Below are positions 1 through 36,614 of a stretch of 42,698 nt of DNA, one piece after another. The stretch covers positions 1 to 42,698 of the forward strand of contig NZ_JADQBF010000099.1 in the NCBI RefSeq assembly GCF_016278775.1, in the 5' to 3' direction. The position numbers were made by a program, and so were the translations under genes. Source of the DNA: Demequina sp. (GTDB lineage Bacteria > Actinomycetota > Actinomycetes > Actinomycetales > Demequinaceae). Under the pieces are notes generated by a model. It worked only from the letters and a program-made list of their open reading frames with translations. It ran no database searches and was not told the DNA's origin. The first letter of the stretch is position 1. Each line of letters starts with the position of its first letter.

Positions 1-549
1 CACCAACGCATCGCCACCGTGACCCTCCCTCCCTCCCTCGACCACTCGCAGTCCGACTTTCTGGATGGCGCGGCAGCCAAGGACCTCATGGCGGGCCTGC
101 CCGCAAGCGTTCCGCAACGGGTGCCTCGCGCGAGGCTCGAGGCGTTCGCAAGCGTGGGCCTGACGCCCTCGCAGATTGCGGTGTGTCCGATCGTCACGCG
201 AGAGCACGCCTACGAGGCGGGAAAGAAGCTGCTGTCACTCCCGCCAGCCGAACGCCCGACGGCGATCGTCTGTCAAGCAGACGTGTACGCGTGGGGCGTG
301 TGGGACGCCGCGAGGGATCTGGGAATGCGCGTTCCGCAAGACGTCTCGATCACGGGCTTCGACGGGTTGACGGAGGGGGTGTTTGCCGCGCTGGACCTCA
401 CGAGCGTGGTCCAGGACGGCACCGAGAAGGGTCGCCTGATCGCGCGGTGGGTGACCCTCGCCTGCGAGGGCCCAGACGCGCCGCCGCCGTTTGACCTGCC
501 GCTCAGCGTCCGCTGGGGCACTTCCGCTGGCCCCGCGCCGCAGTCCTAG
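1..549 (+). CDS. LacI-family regulator, C-terminal ligand-binding part (5' truncated)
   Basis: The reading frame is already open at base 1 and runs about 182 codons to a TAG. The ATG-like starts inside it are not the true start. The C-terminal part (RPTAIVCQADVYAWGV, then VPQDVSITGFDG, then LTSVVQD) matches the periplasmic-binding-protein-like effector domain of LacI/GalR regulators, including the typical 'VPxDVSIxGFD' segment before the last strands. The DNA-binding helix-turn-helix lies outside the window, so neither target nor ligand can be read. Such proteins usually repress sugar-uptake genes. The stop overlaps the end of the convergent rskA gene by four bases. Family assignment is fairly sure; ligand unknown. 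Confidence 0.8.
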   Translation, partial: HQRIATVTLPPSLDHSQSDFLDGAAAKDLMAGLPASVPQRVPRARLEAFASVGLTPSQIAVCPIVTREHAYEAGKKLLSLPPAERPTAIVCQADVYAWGVWDAARDLGMRVPQDVSITGFDGLTEGVFAALDLTSVVQDGTEKGRLIARWVTLACEGPDAPPPFDLPLSVRWGTSAGPAPQS

Positions 550-1271
550 AGGCTGACAGCAGCGACCATCTCGCCCGTGGGTACGGCCGAGCCGCCCCGC
601 GGTTCCTCCGTGATCTCGAACTCAGTGACGTCCTTGAAGTCCGTGTGCATCATGGCCATGAACTTGCCATCGGCGTCCGGCATGAAGGTGGGGCCAGCCA
701 TCATCTGGCCGTCGTCAAGCACGAGCCACAGCTGATACTCCATGCCTTCTGCGGGCGCGGGCGCATCGAGCCCCATGAGCGCCACGCCGCCCATCCGCTC
801 GCTCATCACCAGATGGGAGGAGCCCAGGCTGAGTTCCATGGTGTGTGCGTCGGGCGCCGATGACACCATCATGACCTCGCGCTCGAGTGCCGACGCGTCG
901 GGAGCGTCGTCTGCGGTGGCGAGGACGGCGCCGATGCCCGTCACAGCAATCACCGCTGCGGCTGCAGCGCCGACGAGCGGCCAGCGGCGTCGCTTGCGCG
1001 GTCCGTGAGAGCCGGCGTCGCCAACGACGGTGGGTGGCAGCTGTGCCGTCTGGGCGGCCCTACCCATCACCGCGGCGCGTAGCGTCGCCGGGGGAGCGAC
1101 CGCCTCTGCGTCGACCAAGGTGGCTACGGCGTCGGACATGCGCGCACACTCCTCGCGGCATTCGGTGCATCCGCGCAGGTGATTCTCGAACAACTGACGG
1201 TCAACCTCGTCGACAGCGCCAACGACGTAGGGGCCGAGCAGCGAATGCGGATCGTCAATGGTGTCGTTCAT
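546..1271 (-). CDS. rskA: anti-sigma-K factor RskA-like, membrane-bound
   Basis: A 241-residue anti-sigma factor. The cytoplasmic N-terminus carries the zinc-binding anti-sigma motif H31-x3-C35-x2-C38. A basic patch (RKRRR) and one membrane segment follow at about residues 95-118, then an extracytoplasmic domain of the RskA type (QLWLVLDDGQ). It should hold the SigK factor at the membrane until released by regulated proteolysis, as known for mycobacterial RskA. Its ATG overlaps the sigK stop by four bases (ATGA), so the pair is translationally coupled. The outer domain is unusually rich in methionine (about 15 in roughly 110 residues, with MM and MAMM runs), perhaps a metal- or oxidant-responsive surface (inference). 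Confidence 0.88.
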   Translation of the reverse strand: MNDTIDDPHSLLGPYVVGAVDEVDRQLFENHLRGCTECREECARMSDAVATLVDAEAVAPPATLRAAVMGRAAQTAQLPPTVVGDAGSHGPRKRRRWPLVGAAAAAVIAVTGIGAVLATADDAPDASALEREVMMVSSAPDAHTMELSLGSSHLVMSERMGGVALMGLDAPAPAEGMEYQLWLVLDDGQMMAGPTFMPDADGKFMAMMHTDFKDVTEFEITEEPRGGSAVPTGEMVAAVSL

Positions 1272-1909
1272 CGCTCCTCCTCCCAGGCGTCGCGAAGCTT
1301 GATGAGTCCGTCCCTGATGCGGGCCTTGGCCGTGCCCAGAGGAATGCCGAGCGAGGCGGCCACCTCGCGATGGGTGAAGCCTTTCGCAAATGCGAGGTCA
1401 AGGGCCTCTCGCTGCCGTTCCGTCAGGAGAGCAAGCCCTTCGCGGACGCGCCGTACCTCCCACTCCCGATGCGCCATGTCGACCACCGTGTCGGGTTCGT
1501 CGTGGCTGCCTGTGATCGTGGAGCCGTGGGCCCGAAGTCGGTCAGTGTGTGCCTGCTCGGATCGCACCCTGTCGATCGCGCGACGGTGCGCCATCGTGAG
1601 AATCCAGGTGCGCCCGCTGCCTGCCTCTGGGCGATACCTGGCTGCGCGCCGCCACACCTCGACCAACACGTCTTGGGCGACCTCCTCCGCGATAGCGCGG
1701 TCGCGGACTACCCGCAGCGCGACACCAAAGACGGAAGCCGCTGTCGCGGTATACAACTCGTCGAAGGCCGACTCGTCGCCCCGGCCGACGCGCACCAACA
1801 GTTGGCCGATGACGGCTGAACGGCTGAGCGCGCCCTCGGCGGGGGCCGTCGGCGACGCGGCGGGTGCCGCCGCGTCGCCGACCACCCTCAGGTGCCGTTG
1901 CGAGTTCAC
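1268..1909 (-). CDS. sigK: ECF RNA polymerase sigma factor, SigK-like
   Basis: A 213-residue group IV sigma factor. Region 2 is visible at DESAFDELYTATAASVFGVA through AEEVAQDVLVEVW, and region 4 at LTERQREALDLAF...THREVAASLGIPLGTAKARI. Its partner anti-sigma gene rskA follows with a four-base overlap. I see no cysteine in the whole protein, whereas mycobacterial SigK is reported to carry a redox-sensing cysteine pair, so redox input here would have to come through RskA. It sits 27 bases after the small lipoprotein gene. With two SigK-type promoters upstream of that gene and of dipZ, the operon is probably autoregulated. Assignment to SigK rather than another ECF group rests on the RskA partner and the dipZ context. 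Confidence 0.87.
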   Translation of the reverse strand: MNSQRHLRVVGDAAAPAASPTAPAEGALSRSAVIGQLLVRVGRGDESAFDELYTATAASVFGVALRVVRDRAIAEEVAQDVLVEVWRRAARYRPEAGSGRTWILTMAHRRAIDRVRSEQAHTDRLRAHGSTITGSHDEPDTVVDMAHREWEVRRVREGLALLTERQREALDLAFAKGFTHREVAASLGIPLGTAKARIRDGLIKLRDAWEEER

Positions 1910-1936: not shown

Positions 1937-2095
1937 CTACCCTTCGTCTTCCATCATGGCGTCTTCCGACATCATCGCGTCTTCCGACATGGCTGGCTCT
2001 TCAGACGAGTCGTCGTTGGGATCTCCGCAGCCAGCCAACAGGGCCGCCGTGAGCGCGATGGTGGCTGGGGCCGCGAGCATTCGTGATGTCTTCAT
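1937..2095 (-). CDS. methionine-rich mini-lipoprotein in the sigK operon
   Basis: A 52-residue protein starting at the ATG at 2095, with GGAGG four bases upstream. A longer frame to 2134 exists but would put the signal peptide internal. The lipobox LLAGC (Cys23) ends a classic lipoprotein signal, so the mature protein has only about 30 residues. These are acidic and built from near-repeats of MSEDAM (AMSEDAM-MSEDAM-MEDEG). No known domain. The repeats recall the Met-x-Lys/Glu-Asp pentapeptide proteins found beside some ECF sigma genes. In mycobacteria SigK drives the lipoprotein MPT83, whose fasciclin domain is absent here. Metal binding or sacrificial methionine oxidation are guesses. Confidence 0.75.
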   Translation of the reverse strand: MKTSRMLAAPATIALTAALLAGCGDPNDDSSEEPAMSEDAMMSEDAMMEDEG

Positions 2096-2141: not shown

Positions 2142-2168
2142 ATTCGAGGCGACTGCTGTGCTGGATGG
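2142..2168 (-). promoter_or_regulatory. SigK-type promoter before the mini-lipoprotein/sigK/rskA genes
   Basis: Minus strand: CCATCC at 2168-2163, 15 bases, then TCGAAT at 2147-2142. This is one base off the CCATCC / CCGAAT consensus that I recall for the mycobacterial SigK regulon. It lies immediately after the dipZ stop and about 47 bases before the lipoprotein ATG, leaving room for a short leader with a ribosome binding site. Confidence 0.65.
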
Positions 2169-2170
2169 GA

Positions 2171-3865
2171 TCAGCCAAAGGTGAAGGCGTAGGCCTCGAC
2201 CCCTTCGGAGAACTCAAGCGTCATGACATCCTCCACTGGTACTCCCTCGTACAGGTCATACAGGTCGGACGTGCCGTCCACGCGCACGGTGCGGGTGACG
2301 TCTGGTTCGGATGAAAGGGTGACCGTGACCTCGCCGATGCCAGCGAGCACCAGGTGGACGTCCGCCGCGTAGAAGCGCAGGTTGAGGCGCGCGTCGGGGC
2401 CGGCGATGGCCCTCTCGCCTTCGATGGTCCAGGTGCCGTCGTAGGAGAAATGGTGGAGCTCTGGCGTGGGGGTACCGTCGTACGTCGCTCGCTCATCCGT
2501 GGCGACCCCATCGTTCTGGGCGTACGCCAGTCGCTGCCATCCCAGGTACAACTCGGGGGTTCGACCCTGAGTGTGATTGCCCGGATCCGCCTCGACGAGG
2601 TCCTGCGCCGGGGTGTCGAGCAACTCTTGAATGAGGCGCTCGGTGTCCTCGTAGCCACCCTCGCCGTAGTGCACCTGGCGCACCGTTCCCGTCTGGTCGA
2701 TCAGGTAGTGGGCTGGCCAGAACCGCTGGTCCCAGGCCCGCCATGTCTCGAAGTTGTTGTCGATGGCGATCGGGTACTCGATGCCGTAGCGATCAGCGGC
2801 GTCGTCGACATTGGAGACCACCTTCTCGAAGGTGAACTCTGGGGAGTGCACGCCAATGATCGTCAGCCCGTCGTCGCGGTACCGCTCGTCCCAGGCGGTG
2901 AGATACGGGAAGGTGCGCTGGCAGTTGATGCACGAGTAGGTCCAGAAGTCGAGCAACACCACCTCACCCTCGAGGTCCTTGAGGCTGAGCGCCTCTCCTC
3001 CCTCCGTGTTGAGCCATTCCTCGATCCCTACGAACTCGCGGGCTGGGCCGCAATTGGCCAGACGGTCGGAGGTCTGCTCCTCGCAGTCGTCGAACGACAG
3101 CTGGCCGGCCGGGGCCGCGGGCTGGTCCTCCCTGCCCGTGAGGGTGTCCAATTCGCCGCGCACACCGTTGTTGTTCTCGATCCGCTCTTGGATCTCGGCG
3201 AGCGTGCCAGGCACGATGCGCTGCAGTGGCTCAGCGATGTTGGTGGCGATGACCACCGAAGTAAGGATGAGAACCACACCCGATGCGACGCGGATCGCCT
3301 GCAGGCGCTCGCGCACGGCTCTGATGCGTGAGCCGATGCTCTGGCCGGCCACGCCGAATGCGAGCAGCGGGATGGCGATGCCAACGGAGAAGGCCACGGT
3401 CAGCGCCACGAGTCCCCAGCTGAGCCCGTTGGTCGCGGCCAATACGGTGATCGAGGCCAGTATCGGCCCGGCGCAGGGAACGAAGACGAGGCCTAGAGCC
3501 AGGCCCATGACAAAGCCGTTGCCGTCCCTGTTCAGTTGAGGAAGCCTGGTGCCCTGGAACGGGCGCTCCAGGATGTGGCCCACCGCCGGCACGGCCAATC
3601 CCACGCCGACGATCGCGAGCGTCACGATCCCGGCCCACCTGAGGACGTCGGCAGGAAGCCCGAGGCTTGACAACAGGATGCCGCCGAGCAAGGTGAACAC
3701 AGCGAAACTCGTGACGAGCCCTCCGACCACCACCAACGGTCGCCGACGGGATCGCGCCCCCTCTTGAATGGATGACGTCAGGATGGCGGGCAGCACGGGG
3801 AGCACGCACGGGCTGATGGCGGTGATGAGGCCGGACACGATGCCGACGACGGTCAGGGTGAGCAT
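2171..3865 (-). CDS. dipZ: DipZ-like cytochrome c biogenesis / thiol-disulfide fusion protein
   Basis: A 564-residue fusion. The first ~215 residues form a CcdA/DsbD-type membrane domain with the paired-cysteine signatures SPCVLPVLP (Cys20) and FVPCAGP (Cys131). A spacer follows, then a TlpA/thioredoxin-like domain with the active-site Cys312-Ile-Asn-Cys315 in a FWTYSCINCQ context, then the C-terminal beta domain seen in mycobacterial DipZ. It should carry electrons from cytoplasmic thiols across the membrane to extracytoplasmic partners. No ribosome binding site precedes the ATG. A SigK-type promoter ends seven bases upstream, so the message is probably leaderless. In Mycobacterium tuberculosis dipZ also sits between SigK-dependent genes, so the linkage looks conserved. 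Confidence 0.92.
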   Translation of the reverse strand: MLTLTVVGIVSGLITAISPCVLPVLPAILTSSIQEGARSRRRPLVVVGGLVTSFAVFTLLGGILLSSLGLPADVLRWAGIVTLAIVGVGLAVPAVGHILERPFQGTRLPQLNRDGNGFVMGLALGLVFVPCAGPILASITVLAATNGLSWGLVALTVAFSVGIAIPLLAFGVAGQSIGSRIRAVRERLQAIRVASGVVLILTSVVIATNIAEPLQRIVPGTLAEIQERIENNNGVRGELDTLTGREDQPAAPAGQLSFDDCEEQTSDRLANCGPAREFVGIEEWLNTEGGEALSLKDLEGEVVLLDFWTYSCINCQRTFPYLTAWDERYRDDGLTIIGVHSPEFTFEKVVSNVDDAADRYGIEYPIAIDNNFETWRAWDQRFWPAHYLIDQTGTVRQVHYGEGGYEDTERLIQELLDTPAQDLVEADPGNHTQGRTPELYLGWQRLAYAQNDGVATDERATYDGTPTPELHHFSYDGTWTIEGERAIAGPDARLNLRFYAADVHLVLAGIGEVTVTLSSEPDVTRTVRVDGTSDLYDLYEGVPVEDVMTLEFSEGVEAYAFTFG

Positions 3866-3872
3866 GACTGGT

Positions 3873-3899
3873 GTTCGGGGCGGTCGACCCCATGGATGG
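3873..3899 (-). promoter_or_regulatory. SigK-type promoter of dipZ, probably leaderless
   Basis: Minus strand: CCATCC at 3899-3894, a 15-base spacer, CCGAAC at 3878-3873, then seven bases to the dipZ ATG. Hexamers and spacing match the second copy at 2142-2168. With transcription starting about seven bases after the -10, the transcript would begin at or next to the start codon. Confidence 0.65.
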
Positions 3900-16931: not shown

Positions 16932-18128
16932 CTATTCGACGACGGACCCGGTGATCGACATCGACGCACCCAAGAAGAAGATGTCGCGGTAGGGCGCCGT
17001 GTAGAAATCCTCGCCCGTGTTGTCGACGAGCTGCGAGTTGCGGATGGTGAGGGTGCCGGTGCGGTTGTTGGAGACGTAGAAGATCCCTGGACCGCCCTCG
17101 TCGGCGTAGTTCCCAGAGATGACCGTGCCGTCGATGAGGTAGTGGAAGGCATTGCCGTCGCCGTAGATGCCGCCGCCGTTGCCGCCAAGGCCGGACGACG
17201 CGCCAGTGCCCGTCGCTTGATTGTCGAGCAGCAACGAGTTGAGCACCTGGATCGACGCGTGAAGCCCTGAGATGGCGCCGCCGTTGGCGCAAGCGTTGCC
17301 CTCGAATGTGGAGTTCACGATGTAGTGGGTGCTCGCACTCAGCGTGAGCCGCACCGCGCCGCCTCCGGCATCGGAGTGCTGCGCAATGCATCGGTTGTCG
17401 GTGAAGGCCACATTGACCGCCTTGAACTGCCCGCCCCTCATCGCGATGGCGCCCCCGCCTCCTCCGCCGCCGACGCCGTCGAACCCGGCAGGGCCGTTCG
17501 TGGCGTTTCCTTCGGTCAGGGTGATGTTTTGGAAGACGATCAGCGGCGTGGTCTCGTTGTTGCAGTTCGAGCTGAGCCAGCCGAACTCCTCCTCGCACGC
17601 GTTTGCGTAGAAGATTCCGCGTTCGTCGTTTCCGCTGAGCGTGATCTGGCCCCCACCGTCGAGCACCATCTTCTGGACCGGCACGCCGCCTTGCCACGGG
17701 TGCGCGCAGTTGTGGGTATTGCACGTGTAGAGCGTGCGATCCAGCGTGATCGTCACTGGCGAGGGGCCGCAATCGAACACGACGACCCCGCCGCCTCGTA
17801 CGGCGGACGCGAGCGCCGCTGGGGTACAGGACGCTGGCGTTCCGTTGCCCACGACGTGGTCCGGATCGGAGACGTCCTCTTCCCCAGCCGCCGCGGGGAT
17901 GGTGGCCGTCCCGTCCGGGTTGCCCGTTCGCGTGTACACGATCGACGACGCGAGAGCGATGGGCGCGTCAAAGGGGTAGGCGGCCCCAGCGTCGGCCAGC
18001 ACCATCGCCTGATCCGCATCGGGCGAGATGGTGGCATCGTTTTCCACCACCGCGGTGGCGCACGCGACCGTCGTCACCGCCGCGGCGCATGCAAGCGCCA
18101 CGAATCGGACATTCCGGTATCGGCGCAC
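16932..18128 (-). CDS. secreted right-handed beta-helix lipoprotein
   Basis: A 398-residue exported protein. The signal peptide ends in a lipobox-like TVAC (Cys23). From about residue 90 it is a parallel beta-helix: repeated short strands with Gly/Asn turns (FQNITLTEGNA, GGGAIAMRGGQFKAVNVAFTDNR, YIVNSTFEGNACANGGAI, IQVLNSLLLDNQATG, LTIRNSQLVDNTG). The pattern resembles polymorphic outer-membrane protein and pectate-lyase folds. About eight cysteines in the mature part suggest disulfides. No catalytic residues can be named; a surface binding or polysaccharide-related role is inference. The start was moved from 18212 to GTG 18128, which has TACAGT six bases upstream. Confidence 0.78.
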   Translation of the reverse strand: MRRYRNVRFVALACAAAVTTVACATAVVENDATISPDADQAMVLADAGAAYPFDAPIALASSIVYTRTGNPDGTATIPAAAGEEDVSDPDHVVGNGTPASCTPAALASAVRGGGVVVFDCGPSPVTITLDRTLYTCNTHNCAHPWQGGVPVQKMVLDGGGQITLSGNDERGIFYANACEEEFGWLSSNCNNETTPLIVFQNITLTEGNATNGPAGFDGVGGGGGGGAIAMRGGQFKAVNVAFTDNRCIAQHSDAGGGAVRLTLSASTHYIVNSTFEGNACANGGAISGLHASIQVLNSLLLDNQATGTGASSGLGGNGGGIYGDGNAFHYLIDGTVISGNYADEGGPGIFYVSNNRTGTLTIRNSQLVDNTGEDFYTAPYRDIFFLGASMSITGSVVE

Positions 18129-18134
18129 GGGCCC

Positions 18135-18140
18135 ACTGTA
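18135..18140 (-). promoter_or_regulatory. -10 box, leaderless promoter of the beta-helix gene
   Basis: Minus strand TACAGT, six bases before GTG 18128. Confidence 0.5.
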
Positions 18141-18197
18141 TCCGTCAGTCCACAGGCTTGCTCGGTGAGGAAGTCCGCGTCGAGTCCCGCCGCGTGG

Positions 18198-18203
18198 GAG
18201 AGT
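18198..18203 (+). promoter_or_regulatory. possible -10 box of folC
   Basis: GAGAGT, seven bases before ATG 18211, fits only the loose NAnnnT form. GGGAG ten bases before the ATG is a rival reading as a ribosome binding site. Confidence 0.3.
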
Positions 18204-18210
18204 AGTGCCC

Positions 18211-19605
18211 ATGAGCGAAGCCGACCTCGGCCGCCTCAGCCTTGAGCAGGCCGAGCGCGAGATCTACGCCCACATCCTGTCCCGCAATCCGGAACACGAC
18301 TTCGAGCCCAAGCTCGATCGCGTCCTCGAAGCGTGCACGCTGCTGGGCGATCCCCAGCGCGCCTACAAGGTGATTCACCTGACCGGCACCAACGGCAAGA
18401 CGTCGACGGCCAGGATGGCGGAGTCGCTGGTGCGCGCCCACGGGCTGCGCACAGGGCTCTTCACGTCGCCGCACCTTACGTCCGTGCGCGAGCGCATCGC
18501 CATCGACGGCGAGCCGATCAGCCAAGAGGCGTTCGTGCGCTTGTGGTCAGAGGTGGCCCCCTTCATCAGGATCGTGGACGCGCGCTCTGCGGACGCAGGC
18601 GGGCCGCGCATGAGCTTCTTCGAGGTGCTCACGGTGCTCGCCTTCGCCGCCTTCGCCGACGCCCCAGTGGACGTCGCCGTGATCGAGGTGGGCATGGGAG
18701 GGGTCTGGGACGCCACCAACGTTGCCGACGCCGACGTTGCGGTGATCGGGCCGATCGCGCTCGACCATGAGCGGTGGTTGGGCTCCTCGCTGGCCCAGAT
18801 TGCCGCGGAGAAGGCCGGCATCGTGAAGCCCGACTGCGCGGCGATCGTCGCGGAGCAGGCGGACGTGGTGACGGAGACCATCGCTCCCGCGCTGGAGCAG
18901 GCTCGCGTCGTGATCCGCGAGGGCGAGGATCTTGAGGTGGTGGACCGCGCCGCCGCCGTCGGCGGGCAATTGCTGACCCTGCGCACGCCTTCCGCGACGT
19001 ACGAGGGCGTGTACGTGCCGCTGCTCGGGGCGCACCAGGCGCGCAACGCCAGCATGGCGCTCACTGCGGTCGAGGCGCTGTTGGCTGATGGCGGAGACTT
19101 GCGGTCGCTCGCAGGCGACACGGTGGAGGCAGGGTTCGCGGCCGTCACCTCTCCTGGCAGGCTCGAGATTGTGCGCACCTCGCCCACGATCGTGGTGGAC
19201 GCCGCCCACAACCCGCACGGCATCGGCGCGCTGGCCGAGGCGATGGAGGAGTCCTTCGCCTTCTCTACGCTGGTAGGTGTGGTAGCAGTGCTTGACGACA
19301 AGGACGCGGACGGCATTCTCGCGGGACTCGAATCGCTCCTGGACAGCGTGGTGGTGACGCGGTCGAGTTCTCCGCGAGCGATCGATCCGGAGCAGCTTGC
19401 GCGCGTGGCCGTGGCCCACTTTGGCGAGGACCGCGTGGTGACGGCCGCCGACGTTCCGAGCGCGCTCGACGCCGCCGTGCAGCGTGCTGAGCGCGACGAC
19501 GATATGGGCGGCGGGGTGCTCGTCGTCGGCTCGATCACGGTGGTCGCAGACGCCAGAACGCTGCTGGGCGTCGACAAGCCGCAGCGCCACGGGGCACGGT
19601 CATGA
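18211..19605 (+). CDS. folC: folylpolyglutamate synthase / dihydrofolate synthase
   Basis: A 464-residue Mur-ligase-type enzyme that adds glutamate to dihydropteroate and to reduced folates in the cytoplasm. The P-loop HLTGTNGKTSTA is near residue 55, followed by the folate-family TSPHL segment, the metal-site EVGMGGVWDATNV, and the C-terminal domain with VVDAAHNPHG. ATG 18211 was preferred to the in-frame GTG at 18205. The stop overlaps the DUF4233 gene by four bases (ATGA), a neighbourhood common in Actinomycetota. Confidence 0.96.
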   Translation: MSEADLGRLSLEQAEREIYAHILSRNPEHDFEPKLDRVLEACTLLGDPQRAYKVIHLTGTNGKTSTARMAESLVRAHGLRTGLFTSPHLTSVRERIAIDGEPISQEAFVRLWSEVAPFIRIVDARSADAGGPRMSFFEVLTVLAFAAFADAPVDVAVIEVGMGGVWDATNVADADVAVIGPIALDHERWLGSSLAQIAAEKAGIVKPDCAAIVAEQADVVTETIAPALEQARVVIREGEDLEVVDRAAAVGGQLLTLRTPSATYEGVYVPLLGAHQARNASMALTAVEALLADGGDLRSLAGDTVEAGFAAVTSPGRLEIVRTSPTIVVDAAHNPHGIGALAEAMEESFAFSTLVGVVAVLDDKDADGILAGLESLLDSVVVTRSSSPRAIDPEQLARVAVAHFGEDRVVTAADVPSALDAAVQRAERDDDMGGGVLVVGSITVVADARTLLGVDKPQRHGARS

Positions 19606-26775: not shown

Positions 26776-28050
26776 GTGGTGATTGATGCGGGCAACACGG
26801 CTTGGATGATCATGGCGACGGCGCTCGTGCTGCTCATGACGCCTGGCCTTGCGCTGTTCTATGGAGGCATGGTGAGCGCCAAGTCGGTGCTCAACATGAT
26901 GATGCTCAACTTCGGGGCGATCGGCGTGGTGGCCGTCGCGTGGAGCCTGTGGGGGTACAGCCTCACGTTCGGCCCCACGTGGGCAGGAGGGATCTTCGGG
27001 GACCCCTCCACCTACTTCGGGCTCAACGGCGTGTCAGATGCCGAGAGCCTGGGGGCGGCAACCGGCGTGCCGTTCTTGGTGATGGTCGCCTTCCAAGCCA
27101 CCTTCGCGATCATCACGGTGGCGCTGGTCTCTGGCGCGGTCGCCGATCGCACCAGGTTTGGCCCCTGGCTGGTGTTCGTCGTCCTCTGGCTCACCTTCGT
27201 GTACGCGGCCGTCGCGCACGCGGTCTGGGGCGGGGGCTTCGCGTCCGCTGACGGAGCGATCGCAGACGCGCTATCGACCCCGATCGACTTTGCAGGGGGA
27301 ACCGTAGTGCACATCAACGCGGGGGCCGCGGCATTGGCACTCGCACTCGTTCTTGGCCCGCGCCTCGGCTTCGGCCGGGTTGCGTTCAAGCCTCACAACA
27401 TGCCGTTCGTGCTCATGGGCTCTGCCTTGCTGTGGTTCGGGTGGTTTGGGTTCAACGCTGGCTCCGAGTTCGCTGCAGACGCCACCGCAGGCCGCGCGTT
27501 CCTCAACACGCTCATCGCGCCAGCGGCGGCGATGCTCGCGTGGTGCCTCGTGGAACGCATCCGCGACGGAAAGCCCACGTCGCTGGGAGCGGCCTCCGGC
27601 ATCGTCGGCGGCCTCGTGGCGATCACCCCAGCCGCGGCCGCGGTGGACACGTTTGGCGCGCTCGCCACCGGGGTTGTCGCCGGGACGCTGTGCGCGCTTG
27701 CCGTGACCCTGAAGTACCGCTGGCGCTACGACGACTCCCTGGACGTCGTGGGCGTCCACCTCGTCGGCGGCATGGTCGGCACGCTCATGATCGGATTCTT
27801 CGCCCATCTTGACGAGGGCACCACTTGGGCACCAGACGGGGCGCTGAACGGGCTGCTCTACGGGGGAGACCTCACGCAATTGGTCTCCCAAGCCGTCGTG
27901 GCGTTCCTTGCCCTCGCGGTGTCCTTCACAGGGACCGCCATCATCGCGCAACTCCTCAAGGTGACGATCGGCTTCCGCGTCAGTTCAGAGGTGGAGAGGA
28001 ACAGCATCGACATCGCCGAGCATGGGGAGGCGGCGTACGAGGAGGCCTGA
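26776..28050 (+). CDS. amt: ammonium transporter (first copy)
   Basis: A 424-residue Amt/MEP channel with about 11 membrane segments, opening AWMIMATALVLLMTPGLALFYGGM. Family signatures present: ADRTRFGPWLVF, the pore segment DFAGGTVVHINAGAAAL with one pore histidine region, FGWFGFNAGS, and DVVGVHLVGGMVGTL with the second conserved histidine. It moves ammonium/ammonia inward. GTG 26776 has GGGGAGG five bases upstream. Unlike the second copy it has no glnK behind it, and I found no convincing GlnR box in the 115 bases before it. The two copies are close in length and in C-terminal tail (AEHGEAAYEEA versus [11 protein letters not shown]). Confidence 0.95.
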   Translation: MVIDAGNTAWMIMATALVLLMTPGLALFYGGMVSAKSVLNMMMLNFGAIGVVAVAWSLWGYSLTFGPTWAGGIFGDPSTYFGLNGVSDAESLGAATGVPFLVMVAFQATFAIITVALVSGAVADRTRFGPWLVFVVLWLTFVYAAVAHAVWGGGFASADGAIADALSTPIDFAGGTVVHINAGAAALALALVLGPRLGFGRVAFKPHNMPFVLMGSALLWFGWFGFNAGSEFAADATAGRAFLNTLIAPAAAMLAWCLVERIRDGKPTSLGAASGIVGGLVAITPAAAAVDTFGALATGVVAGTLCALAVTLKYRWRYDDSLDVVGVHLVGGMVGTLMIGFFAHLDEGTTWAPDGALNGLLYGGDLTQLVSQAVVAFLALAVSFTGTAIIAQLLKVTIGFRVSSEVERNSIDIAEHGEAAYEEA

Positions 28051-28975: not shown

Positions 28976-30588
<1,613 letters not shown>

Positions 30589-30592
30589 AGCA

Positions 30593-30608
30593 CCCATCTC
30601 ACGATGGG
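30593..30608 (+). terminator. short hairpin between glnK and glnD
   Basis: Perfect stem CCCATC / GATGGG with loop TCAC. It covers the ATG at 30604 proposed for glnD. Confidence 0.35.
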
Positions 30609-32379
30609 CCGTTCGGGAACAGTCCGCGACGGCTCGCACGCTGAGGTCCCGCACCCCCACGGGGTGCGGGACCTCAAGCGTGAGCGGCAAGAGCTCGCGA
30701 TCCGTCTGGCCGACCAGCCGGGGCGCCAGCGTAGGCAGGCGCTTGCCGACCTGGTCTTCGCACGACTCACAGAACACTTTGTCGCTGCTGCTGACGGAGC
30801 GGAAGGGCTGACGCTCGCCGCAGTGGGCAGCGTCGGCCGGGCAGAGGCCGGTCCCCATTCGGACCTTGACTTGGTGCTGCTCCACGATGGCACCTCTGCT
30901 GGCAAGGCTGCGGCGGGCGACGTGGCGCAGCGCCTCTGGTATCCCATTTGGGACGCAGGGCTCCAGTTGGATCACTCCACCCGGTCGCTCACCGAGTGCC
31001 GTCAGGTGGCGTCCAAGGACCTGGCGGCCGCAGCTGGCTTGCTCGACTTGCGTCCGATCGCAGGGGACGAGTCGCTCGCGCAACGGGCGCGTTCAGCGAT
31101 CCTCGCCGACTGGCGCTCGGCAGCACGCAAACGCCTCCCAGAACTTCTCGCAGCGTCACGCGCGAGGGCCGAGCGCTGTGGCGAACTCGCGTATCTCATC
31201 GAGCCCAATATCAAGGAGTCGCGCGGCGGTTTGCGCGACTACGCGAGCCTCACGGCGCTCGCGGCAACCTGGCTCACCGACCGCCCGCACGGTGCCGTCG
31301 ACGACGCCGCACAACACCTCCTCGATGTGCGCGACGCGGTTCACACGGTGTCCGGCAGGGCCTCCACCATCGTTGGTAGGCACGTGGCGCAGGACGTTGC
31401 CGACGCTCTTGGCATGGGGGATACGGACGAGTTGTTGGCTTCCGTAGCGGACGCGGGTCGCACGATCGCCTTCGCGGTTGACACCACGGAGCGGGGAGCC
31501 CGCCGTGCGTTGGAGAAGTCCGGCGTGGGTTCGCGTGCCTTCTTAGCGAAGCGACGCGGCACCGCCCCGCGCCACGTTCACGTCTCGCAAGGGCTCATCG
31601 ATGTGGATGGGGATTTGGCGCTCGCACCCGGCTATTCGGCAGAGGACGATGCGGTGCTCCCATTGCGGGCCGCCGCAGCGGCCGCGTCAACCGGGCTGTC
31701 GTTCACTCCAAGCCTTCTCGAGTCGCTCATGCGCTGTCCAGAATTGGCCAACCCGTGGCCGAGCGAGGCTCTCGACCGCTTCGCGGAGTTGCTCCGCAAC
31801 TCACACCACCTGTTGAGTGTGTGGGAGGCGCTCGACGTGGCGGGACAGGTGGTGAGGTGGTTGCCGGAGTGGGCGCCAGTGAGGAACCGTCCGCAACGCA
31901 ACCCCTTTCACCTGTACACGGTGGATCGACACCAGATCGAGGCGGTGGTACTCGCTGGCAAACTGCGCAAGCACCTGGCCGACCCCGACCTGCTTCTCTA
32001 TGCGGCCCTGTTTCACGACATCGGCAAGCAGGCGGGCGTGGCGGATCACTCGGAGTACGGGGCAGAACTCGTCCCCGGCATCGTGTCGCGACTGGGCCTG
32101 CCCGAGGCCCAAGGAAGAGACCTGCAGACCCTGGTGCGCGAGCACCTCACGCTCGCTGACTTCGCCACCACCCGCGACGCTGAGGACCCAGCGGTGGCGG
32201 CGGAACTCATCGAGCGACTTGGCGGTCGCGCCGACCTGTTCGAGGTGCTGCGGGCGCTCACGGAGGCGGATGCCAAGGCGGCCAGTCCCAAGGCGTGGAC
32301 TGCGTGGCGCGAGCAACTCATTGACGTCCTGACGACTCGGGTGCGCGCCACCTTGGCCGCTGGGCCGCGGGTAGGCTAG
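30604..32379 (+). CDS. glnD: PII nucleotidyltransferase GlnD, short form without ACT domains
   Basis: A bifunctional enzyme that adds and removes a nucleotide on GlnK Tyr51. The nucleotidyltransferase motif AVGSVGRAEAGPHSDLDLVL is near residue 80, helical GlnD domains follow (IEPNIKESRGGLRDY), and the HD hydrolase domain has VDRHQIEAV and LFHDIGK. The protein ends about 40 residues after the helices that follow the HD domain, at 591 residues. Usual GlnD has 700-900 with two C-terminal ACT glutamine sensors, and here ffh starts 29 bases later. The start is uncertain: ATG 30604 lacks a ribosome binding site, while GTG 30664 fits homologues better but sits in the right arm of a 21-bp hairpin. 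Confidence 0.88.
   Translation: MGRSGTVRDGSHAEVPHPHGVRDLKRERQELAIRLADQPGRQRRQALADLVFARLTEHFVAAADGAEGLTLAAVGSVGRAEAGPHSDLDLVLLHDGTSAGKAAAGDVAQRLWYPIWDAGLQLDHSTRSLTECRQVASKDLAAAAGLLDLRPIAGDESLAQRARSAILADWRSAARKRLPELLAASRARAERCGELAYLIEPNIKESRGGLRDYASLTALAATWLTDRPHGAVDDAAQHLLDVRDAVHTVSGRASTIVGRHVAQDVADALGMGDTDELLASVADAGRTIAFAVDTTERGARRALEKSGVGSRAFLAKRRGTAPRHVHVSQGLIDVDGDLALAPGYSAEDDAVLPLRAAAAAASTGLSFTPSLLESLMRCPELANPWPSEALDRFAELLRNSHHLLSVWEALDVAGQVVRWLPEWAPVRNRPQRNPFHLYTVDRHQIEAVVLAGKLRKHLADPDLLLYAALFHDIGKQAGVADHSEYGAELVPGIVSRLGLPEAQGRDLQTLVREHLTLADFATTRDAEDPAVAAELIERLGGRADLFEVLRALTEADAKAASPKAWTAWREQLIDVLTTRVRATLAAGPRVG
30637..30682 (+). terminator. long hairpin overlapping the glnD 5' end
   Basis: A 16-bp perfect stem (30642-30657 with 30661-30676) continues, after a one-base bulge, into five more pairs (CACGC 30637-30641 / GCGTG 30678-30682). 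The loop has three bases. There is no T-run. It could terminate part of the amtB-glnK transcription or hide the GTG at 30664. Confidence 0.6.
32372..32377 (+). promoter_or_regulatory. possible -10 box of ffh
   Basis: TAGGCT overlaps the end of glnD, 31 bases before GTG 32409. GGGAG lies before the GTG, so this would be a promoter with a short leader. Confidence 0.4.
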
Positions 32380-35092: not shown

Positions 35093-35240
35093 CTTCCGTC
35101 CGAACACCACGAGAGCACGGTCACCACCATCCGATTCTCTGGCGGTGGCTCATGGAGGGAATGCGCGGGCGACATCGTGCGTTGCGTTCGTCAACCGGAC
35201 GCTTCTTTGCGGGCGCCGCTGGCACGAGGGAGGAACGCGC

Positions 35241-36614
35241 ATGACGCCAAGCGCCGCGCTCAATACACGTCAGGTCGCCGCCCGCTCCTGGTGGGCTGAC
35301 CTGGTTCAGGGCGCGACGTACGTGGTCGCCGCCACCGGCGTCGCCTTCTTTCTCGCCGACGGAGGGCTTCACACTTTCGCGACGATCGACTACGTGTACT
35401 CGGCCGGTCGTGCGCTGGGCATCGTCGCGGCCGTCTTCATGCTCTTCCAGGTGCTCCTCATCTCGCGCGCGCCGTTCATCGAACGAGGCATCGGTCATGA
35501 CCGCGCGGCCGCTCTGCACACCCGGACCGGCAAGGTCGCGATCATCCTGATGGCCGCCCACGCGGGAATCATCAGCGTGATGAGCGCCTACTACGCAGAC
35601 ATCACTGTGATCGCGCAGTCCACGAGGTTCTTCACCAGCCAGTGGTACCTCGCCATGGCGCAAATCGCCCTGGGTGTGTTCGTGGTCATCTTTGTCACGT
35701 CGCTGCTCATGGTGCGTTCGCGGTGGCGCTACGAGAACTGGCACGCCGTTCACCTGCTGACCTACGTGGGTGTGGCGCTCGCCATCCCTCACCAGTTTCT
35801 TGAGGGCTCCACCTTCCGCGATGGCGGGGCCGCCTGGTGGTACTGGCTGACCCTGTACGTCATCGCGTGGGGCTCGCTGTTGACCTTCAGGGTCGTGGTG
35901 CCGCTCGTGAGGTTCGCAAGGCACGATGTCAGGGTGGCTACGGTGTCGACGCTCAGCGATGGCTCCGCCTCCATCGAGATGAGCGGCAGGCACCTGGATG
36001 GTCTGGGCGCCAAGCCTGGGCAGTTCATGTTGTGGCGCTTTCTTGACCGTGAGCGCTGGCGCGACCCTCACCCCTTCTCGCTGTCGCGGGCCGCGAGCCC
36101 CACCTCGCTGCGCATCACCGTGAAGCCCAGTGGCGACGGTTCGTCTGCAATCGCGGCAGTCGCGCCAGGTACGCGTGTGATGGTGGAGGGGCCGTTCGGT
36201 GTCTTCAGCCGGGTGTCGCGCACCCGCCGCGGCGTCGTGCTCATTGCTGCTGGCATCGGGATCACGCCCATCCGCGCCATGCTCGAGGAACTCGACCCTG
36301 CCCACGGGCCGGTCGACGTGATCGTGCGAGCCCGCAGCGCGGCGGAGGCGCCACTCCTGGACGAGGTCGAGGCGATCGCCGCAGCCAAGGGCGTCCCCGT
36401 GCACGTCGTACTTGGCGGTCGCGGTGACGGCTGGTCATCAACGGAGAGCCCCGCGACGCTCGAAGACCTAGTGCCCGATGTCGCCGAACGCGACGTCTAC
36501 ATCTGTGGTCCCGGCCCATGGGCCGCGACAGTCGAGAAGGAGGCCCGCGCCGCTGGTGTGGGTCGAGATAGTGTCCACCGGGAGGCATTTGCGTGGAGCG
36601 GAGACAAGACATGA
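35241..36614 (+). CDS. ferric-reductase-like transmembrane flavoprotein
   Basis: A 457-residue fusion. The N-terminal ~230 residues have six membrane segments of the ferric reductase/NOX type with histidines for haem (ALHTRTGK, MAAHAGI, NWHAVHLLTYVG, IPHQFLE). Then comes an FAD domain (DPHPFSLSRAASP, FAD-binding HPFS-type) and an NAD(P)-binding domain (VLIAAGIGITPIRAML, IVRARS, YICGPGPW). It should pass electrons from NAD(P)H through FAD and haems across the membrane. ATG 35241 has GGGAGGAA upstream; the frame is open further to 35145. It overlaps the FMN-binding lipoprotein gene by ATGA, so electrons probably go to that protein. Confidence 0.9.
   Translation: MTPSAALNTRQVAARSWWADLVQGATYVVAATGVAFFLADGGLHTFATIDYVYSAGRALGIVAAVFMLFQVLLISRAPFIERGIGHDRAAALHTRTGKVAIILMAAHAGIISVMSAYYADITVIAQSTRFFTSQWYLAMAQIALGVFVVIFVTSLLMVRSRWRYENWHAVHLLTYVGVALAIPHQFLEGSTFRDGGAAWWYWLTLYVIAWGSLLTFRVVVPLVRFARHDVRVATVSTLSDGSASIEMSGRHLDGLGAKPGQFMLWRFLDRERWRDPHPFSLSRAASPTSLRITVKPSGDGSSAIAAVAPGTRVMVEGPFGVFSRVSRTRRGVVLIAAGIGITPIRAMLEELDPAHGPVDVIVRARSAAEAPLLDEVEAIAAAKGVPVHVVLGGRGDGWSSTESPATLEDLVPDVAERDVYICGPGPWAATVEKEARAAGVGRDSVHREAFAWSGDKT

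Follow-up and report, generated by a model that had tools for sequence, protein, structure and literature searches.

Candidate SigK-type promoters before dipZ and a methionine-rich lipoprotein-sigK-rskA operon in Demequina

Demequina sp. presumably transcribes dipZ and an operon for a methionine-rich mini-lipoprotein, a SigK-type sigma factor and its RskA-type anti-sigma factor from one promoter type, two copies of which lie in the stretch of DNA analysed here (42,698 nucleotides, referred to as the window). The sigma factor is predicted with high confidence to use both sites, in a feedback held by RskA. The whole interpretation, in which both sites are SigK-type promoters and the lipoprotein is added as an oxidant sink, is probably the best explanation of the locus. 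In outline such a regulon is already known from the available text of PMC7509140; new are its thiol-redox gene content and the short lipoprotein with about 18% Met in the mpt83 slot. The features concerned are the following.

2171..3865, (-) strand: dipZ, 564 aa, with a DsbD/CcdA-type membrane domain, an AhpC/TSA-type domain and a C-terminal Thioredoxin_10 domain
1937..2095, (-) strand: mini-lipoprotein, 52 aa, Met/acid-rich, with the lipobox LAGC and GGAGG upstream of the ATG
1268..1909, (-) strand: SigK-type ECF sigma factor according to family matches, 213 aa, GTG start, cysteine-free
546..1271, (-) strand: RskA-type anti-sigma factor with zf-HC2 (HX3CX2C) and RskA_C, overlapping sigK by ATGA
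3873..3899, (-) strand: SigK-type candidate promoter of dipZ, CCATCC-N15-CCGAAC, ending 7 nt upstream of the ATG (3865)
2142..2168, (-) strand: SigK-type candidate promoter of the lipoprotein-sigK-rskA operon, CCATCC-N15-TCGAAT, ending 46 nt upstream of the ATG

Among 77 families the sigma factor matched NCBIfam NF007228 (SigK) best, with 214.6 bits, which is below the cut-off of 226 and led us to name it SigK-type; it was also matched by PDB 4nqw. The overlapping gene after sigK matched PF10099 (RskA_C) with 65.7 bits, over the cut-off, and zf-HC2 with 27.7 bits. The dipZ product shares 65-87% identity with those of Demequina relatives.

Elsewhere in the window two ammonium transporter genes lie close together (26776-28050 and 28976-30253), followed by a glnD-like gene (30604-32379). 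Two long ORFs on the (-) strand (16932-18212 and 35121-36404) had no Pfam match at 1e-5 and may either encode proteins of an unknown family or be shadow ORFs.

The original prediction had placed the element CCATCC-N15-CCGAAC seven bases before dipZ and CCATCC-N15-TCGAAT between dipZ and the mini-lipoprotein, both on the (-) strand, and had stated that their hexamers and 15-base spacing agree. Both elements were found at these places and conform to CCATCC-N15-YCGAAY. A search of the window for CCATCC-N14..18-YCGAAY returned only these two matches, at 3873-3899(-) and 2142-2168(-), both with N15, while 100 shuffles of the window contained 0.14 matches on average and none contained two. The operon site begins 2 nt past the dipZ stop codon. 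The SigK promoter of mycobacteria is CCATCC / CCGAAT-like with a spacing of about 16-17, and a site of this type is present upstream of the sigma factor's own operon and of dipZ. In the available text of PMC7509140 the sole CCATCC falls in a primer.

Conservation of the sites was followed through 32 congeneric sigK loci (L042-L073). Among named relatives, the closest to the sigK of the window are from D. sp. NBRC 110052, D. sediminicola, D. aurantiaca and D. oxidasica. Each dipZ start was taken from a tblastn alignment beginning at residue 1, blind to the motif, except in L047, where dipZ lies in two frames and the start was placed by eye at motif+7; the count omits L050 (a locus without dipZ) as well as L060 and L073 (dipZ cut by the contig end). 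In all 30 regions (29 congeners and the window) the element has a spacing of 15, and its end lies exactly 7 nt upstream of the start codon. CCATCC/YCGAAY is exact in 16 of the 30, the remainder carrying one or two substitutions; without L047, the element is at this position in 29/29 and exact in 15/29. The pattern common to the 30 regions is CC[AG][TA]C[CT]-N15-[ACT]CGAA[CTG], with an invariant C at -34, -33 and -30 and an invariant CGAA at -12..-9. Columns within the hexamers are 87-100% conserved apart from the T in CCATCC (67%) and the final base (77%), and those outside mostly reach 30-70%, with exceptions including -35 (C, 100%), -15 (C, 93%), -6 (C, 80%) and -1 (C, 97%). Because the 7 nt from the -10 element to the start codon offer no space for a ribosome-binding site, the arrangement suggests a leaderless dipZ mRNA.

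The site before the lipoprotein gene lies 40-52 nt upstream of the ATG; of the 30 loci, 25 have it in exact form and five with one mismatch. This count omits L050, L053 and L073, in which no Met-rich lipoprotein was seen directly before sigK; there the site before sigK is present nevertheless, exact in L050 and L053 and with one mismatch in L073. In G015, G024 and G061 the site was found upstream of sigK with no Met-rich lipoprotein detected between.

The exact motif with a spacing of 15 occurs at 148 sites over 41 Demequina genomes, compared with 297 sites for the spacings N16-N20 together, i.e. 59.4 per spacing or a chance rate of about 1.4 exact sites per genome and spacing. The Poisson tail of this excess is 3e-22, with related genomes treated as independent; due to the kinship among the genomes, this value and the Fisher value given below overstate independence. 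Of the sites, 147 were examined, 44 at sigK loci and in the window and 109 in stretches whose downstream ORFs were clustered, six being shared. The 53 loci belonging to no ORF cluster are expected if many sites are chance matches.

Among the recurrent targets, a gene encoding a thioredoxin-domain lipoprotein (trxL) lies downstream of a site in 21 genomes and a CcdA-type gene, identified by eye from sequence likeness, in 10 genomes, usually convergent with trxL. The genome that holds the window (2.52 Mb, 115 contigs; assembly completeness 93.9%) has five exact N15 sites, namely the two window sites, one before the thioredoxin lipoprotein gene (L008) and a further two, at L009 and L010, which fall within long ORFs of unrelated genes. 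Its trxL (L008/L186) starts 74 nt past the site and encodes the motif WCPTC and a Redoxin domain (51 bits). Tandem pairs of trxL were observed in L113 (G016), L117 (G035), L187 (G003) and L186 (contig C73 of the window's genome), with a site at both copies in L113 and at one copy only in L117, L186 and L187. The trxL linkers contain 0 to 15% Met (five rows without a recognisable lipobox were left out), and a Met-rich linker was accordingly rejected as a mark of every motif-linked lipoprotein. Fasciclin (PF02469) has no match in the window's genome and is present in 14 of the 41 Demequina genomes; its MPT83-like lipoprotein gene has an exact site in two of these 14 (L109, L161) and a site with one mismatch in a third. 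Furthermore, three Demequina genomes have an exact N15 site upstream of the gene for a substrate-binding-type lipoprotein (L089, L144, L162). Other small gene groups downstream of sites were L090/L152/L163, L093/L127 and L107/L110.

Of the 37 genomes with a sigK orthologue, 25 have sites before trxL and/or ccdA and 12 lack an exact site before either gene; none of the four genomes without the orthologue (G009, G013, G021, G027) has such sites (Fisher 0.018). The four genomes hold 10 exact sites, none by dipZ, trxL or ccdA, and only G009 among them has a full dipZ (65% identity), with no site upstream. The site of L162 before the substrate-binding-type lipoprotein belongs to G021 and thus speaks against that gene as a SigK target; two genomes with sigK likewise carry a site before this gene. 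Taken together, the motif is enriched near other envelope genes as had been anticipated, given the N15 excess in the 41 genomes and the sites before trxL, ccdA and some fasciclin lipoproteins. The autoregulated dipZ / lipoprotein / sigK / rskA regulon that had been proposed is supported by sequence, with a site before both sigK's own operon and dipZ, the fixed place of the dipZ site (29/29) and its lack in G009. On the opposing side are the 12 sigK genomes without an exact site at trxL or ccdA, the small share of fasciclin genes with an exact site (two of 14) and the 22 of 32 dipZ loci from outside the genus in which no site was recognised before dipZ.

Two other explanations of the sites have to be considered. 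If both were chance matches, the two additional exact N15 matches of the genome within unrelated ORFs (L009, L010) would be of the same kind; however, the position is fixed across the congeners examined and the excess is specific to one spacing. Together with the shuffles (0.14), these observations rule out a chance origin, the probability of which appears negligible. The sites could also be served by a different ECF sigma factor encoded in the genome instead of the product of the neighbouring sigK-type gene, as five other stretches of the genome match the SigK-type factor at E<=1e-3 (six including its own gene). Such an assignment seems very unlikely, however, since a site precedes the sigma operon itself and the four genomes without the sigK-type gene have no site by dipZ, trxL or ccdA.

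The mini-lipoprotein in the window, which is expected to be disordered, has a mature part of 30 aa with five Met (16.7%) and 12 Asp/Glu. Across Demequina the family consists of proteins of 52-108 aa with a lipobox and Met/Asp/Glu/Ser repeats, which differ in length from species to species. A separate short gene lies directly before sigK in 29 of the 32 congeneric loci and a second mini-lipoprotein copy after dipZ in 10 of the 32. In the 29 congeners with a mini-lipoprotein directly before sigK the mature parts contain 18% Met on average (14.5-21%), compared with 0.9% over the initial 60 mature residues in a control set of 11 substrate-binding lipoproteins from the window's genome (13 minus L358 and L367, which have no full ORF). 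Within the order, a profile of the mini-lipoproteins found matches in 47 out of 297 genomes; Demequina accounts for 22 of these, and most matches in the others were weak. The profile also matched the linker of trxL from the window's genome (E 1.6e-6). The top NCBIfam match of the mini-lipoprotein from the window was TIGR02953 penta_MxKDx (E 0.0028), a family listed for three of the seven mini-lipoproteins tested, in each case under the cut-off of 41 bits (17.6 in the window, 20.0 in L051 and 27.1 in L341). That the mini-lipoprotein is unique to one species was rejected, the family being genus-wide with look-alikes elsewhere by dipZ and sigK. We found no account of a Met-rich lipoprotein with DipZ/SigK in the open-access literature, nor one combining Demequina, a sigma factor, a lipoprotein and methionine among the top matches of that literature.

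In 32 dipZ loci outside Demequina the slot beside dipZ is occupied by an MPT83-like fasciclin lipoprotein in 19, by a short Met-rich lipoprotein in seven (L327, L332, L338, L340-L343; each cassette includes a sigK-like gene), by a 182-aa Met-rich lipoprotein (L344) and a Met-poor lipoprotein (L339) in one each, and by no convincing lipoprotein in four. A site was recognised before dipZ in 10 of the 32 loci and none in the other 22; the distance to dipZ was taken for 12 loci, 10 of these with a dipZ site, and nine of the 10 sites end 7 nt upstream of the ATG. CCATCC-N15/16-YCGAAY precedes the fasciclin gene in 12 of the 19 fasciclin loci, and in six of the 19 Met makes up at least 8% of the first 70 mature residues, with lower values in the others (L317 7%, L323 4%). 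The notion of Met-rich look-alikes by dipZ without sigK was rejected, as wider stretches place sigK after dipZ. The lipoprotein of L344 (G074), encoded at about 2345-2893 in dipZ orientation, contains 21% Met in its first 70 mature residues, and no sigK was found in the stretch.

Since a lipid-anchored peptide that is one-sixth Met adjoins the DipZ/CcdA/thioredoxin system, the mini-lipoprotein may act at the membrane surface as a sacrificial Met-rich sink for oxidants, a role also proposed for BcrX and MrpX; we put it forward tentatively as the likeliest one, though short of even odds. In the window's genome, whose assembly is 93.9% complete, a single MsrA and a single MsrB were found, neither with a signal peptide recognisable by eye, and MsrP (PF00174) had no match. 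As an extracytoplasmic methionine sulfoxide reductase was not detected there, the sink may be one-way or reduced by some other enzyme. The Met-poor lipoprotein in the slot of L339, the wide Met range of the trxL linkers and the TIGR02953 scores below the cut-off also weigh against a sink. Alternatively, the mini-lipoprotein might be a tether or remnant, consisting of the signal peptide and linker of an MPT83-like fasciclin lipoprotein minus its domain, in which Met drifted up within a disordered acidic linker without any redox role. Similar Met/Asp/Glu linkers in some fasciclin lipoproteins of Demequina and other families (L109, L161, L274, L334, L337) are consistent with such an origin, as is the fasciclin in the slot at 19 of the 32 dipZ loci from other genera. 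Against it speak the presence of a short gene of its own immediately upstream of sigK in 29 of 32 congeneric loci, 14.5-21% Met throughout, a species-specific repeat length and two copies in 10 of the 32 loci, and we consider this origin rather unlikely. The composition, rich in Met and Asp/Glu, would also suit a lipopeptide that binds metal at the surface, e.g. copper or silver, instead of taking up oxidants. However, the genes that recur downstream of the motif serve mainly thiol-redox functions, and no cluster of metal transporters was seen among targets shared by more than one genome, so that metal binding appears less probable still.

According to the alignment to 4nqw, the two cysteines of M. 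tuberculosis SigK, 133 and 183, are replaced by Ser and Ala in the sigma factor of the window, and 28 of the 32 congeners have a SigK-type factor without Cys in the aligned region, while HX3CX2C is kept in all 32 congeneric RskA proteins. As far as the available text of PMC7509140 goes, the two cysteines occur in 94% of ECF18 and 56% of ECF19 members; since only 56% of ECF19 carry them, cysteine-less SigK-like factors as such are already known. In the Nocardia pairing described there, a SigK missing the cysteines goes with a truncated RskA, whereas the cysteine-less factor of the window goes with a full-length RskA. If the switch is redox-driven, the zinc-type site of the anti-sigma factor would be the likelier place of the sensor.

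In the proposed mechanism the membrane anti-sigma factor RskA would restrain the sigma factor until a surface signal, presumably of redox nature, frees it. The freed factor with RNA polymerase would then start dipZ transcription at or beside the ATG, giving the leaderless transcript, and would transcribe the lipoprotein-sigK-rskA operon in a positive feedback loop checked by RskA. Expression of trxL would rise with dipZ and the operon, and in some sister species that of ccdA too. DipZ and CcdA may send electrons across the membrane to lipid-anchored thioredoxins outside, and the mini-lipoprotein would occupy the place of mpt83 in the cassette.

The closest known system, in the available text of the sources, is the conserved mpt83-sigK-rskA cassette with a SigK site in mycobacteria and other Actinobacteria (PMC7509140), dipZ being counted among the SigK targets (PMC3078919). 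Demequina resembles it in the sigK-rskA pair, the conserved site before the cassette and dipZ predicted under SigK, but the window's genome has no fasciclin match and carries the Met-rich mini-lipoprotein in the slot, and in Demequina trxL and, in sister species, ccdA have sites as well.

A second resemblance concerns Brucella, where a Met-rich MXKDX protein under an ECF sigma factor belongs to an HOCl-resistance operon, and an oxidant sink was proposed for BcrX and MrpX (available text of PMC8315932). As in BcrS-AbcS/BcrXQP of Brucella and MrpX of Azospira, an ECF sigma/anti-sigma pair has as neighbours a short exported peptide rich in Met and genes for redox functions of the envelope. However, the sigma factor belongs to another ECF group, the peptide of the window is lipid-anchored and acidic and not MXKDX, and Demequina has DipZ/CcdA/thioredoxin instead of an MsrP match. 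In pneumococcus, CcdA and surface thioredoxin lipoproteins feed a methionine sulfoxide reductase, which is established (PMC3914529, available text). The thioredoxin lipoprotein of L008/L186 would pair with CcdA as in this CcdA-Etrx-SpMsrAB2 system, whereas the window's genome has no extracytoplasmic MsrAB seen and differs by sigma-factor control and by DipZ and the Met-rich lipopeptide as extra components.

In Demequina, which is not known to be pathogenic, the same promoters before trxL, ccdA and a bare Met-rich lipopeptide point to a surface thiol/methionine redox control and open it to study in a laboratory organism. Still more cautiously than for the sink itself, we suggest that the SigK/DipZ cassette may have been rebuilt in several actinobacterial lineages into an extracytoplasmic Met buffer, in which the lipopeptide takes the oxidant and DipZ, CcdA and thioredoxin lipoproteins supply the electrons. 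If true, it would represent the Gram-positive equivalent of the MrpX/MsrPQ systems under ECF control, and it would suggest that the MPT83/DipZ/SigK regulon, together with the Met-rich linkers of some fasciclin lipoproteins, had surface redox defence as its older function.
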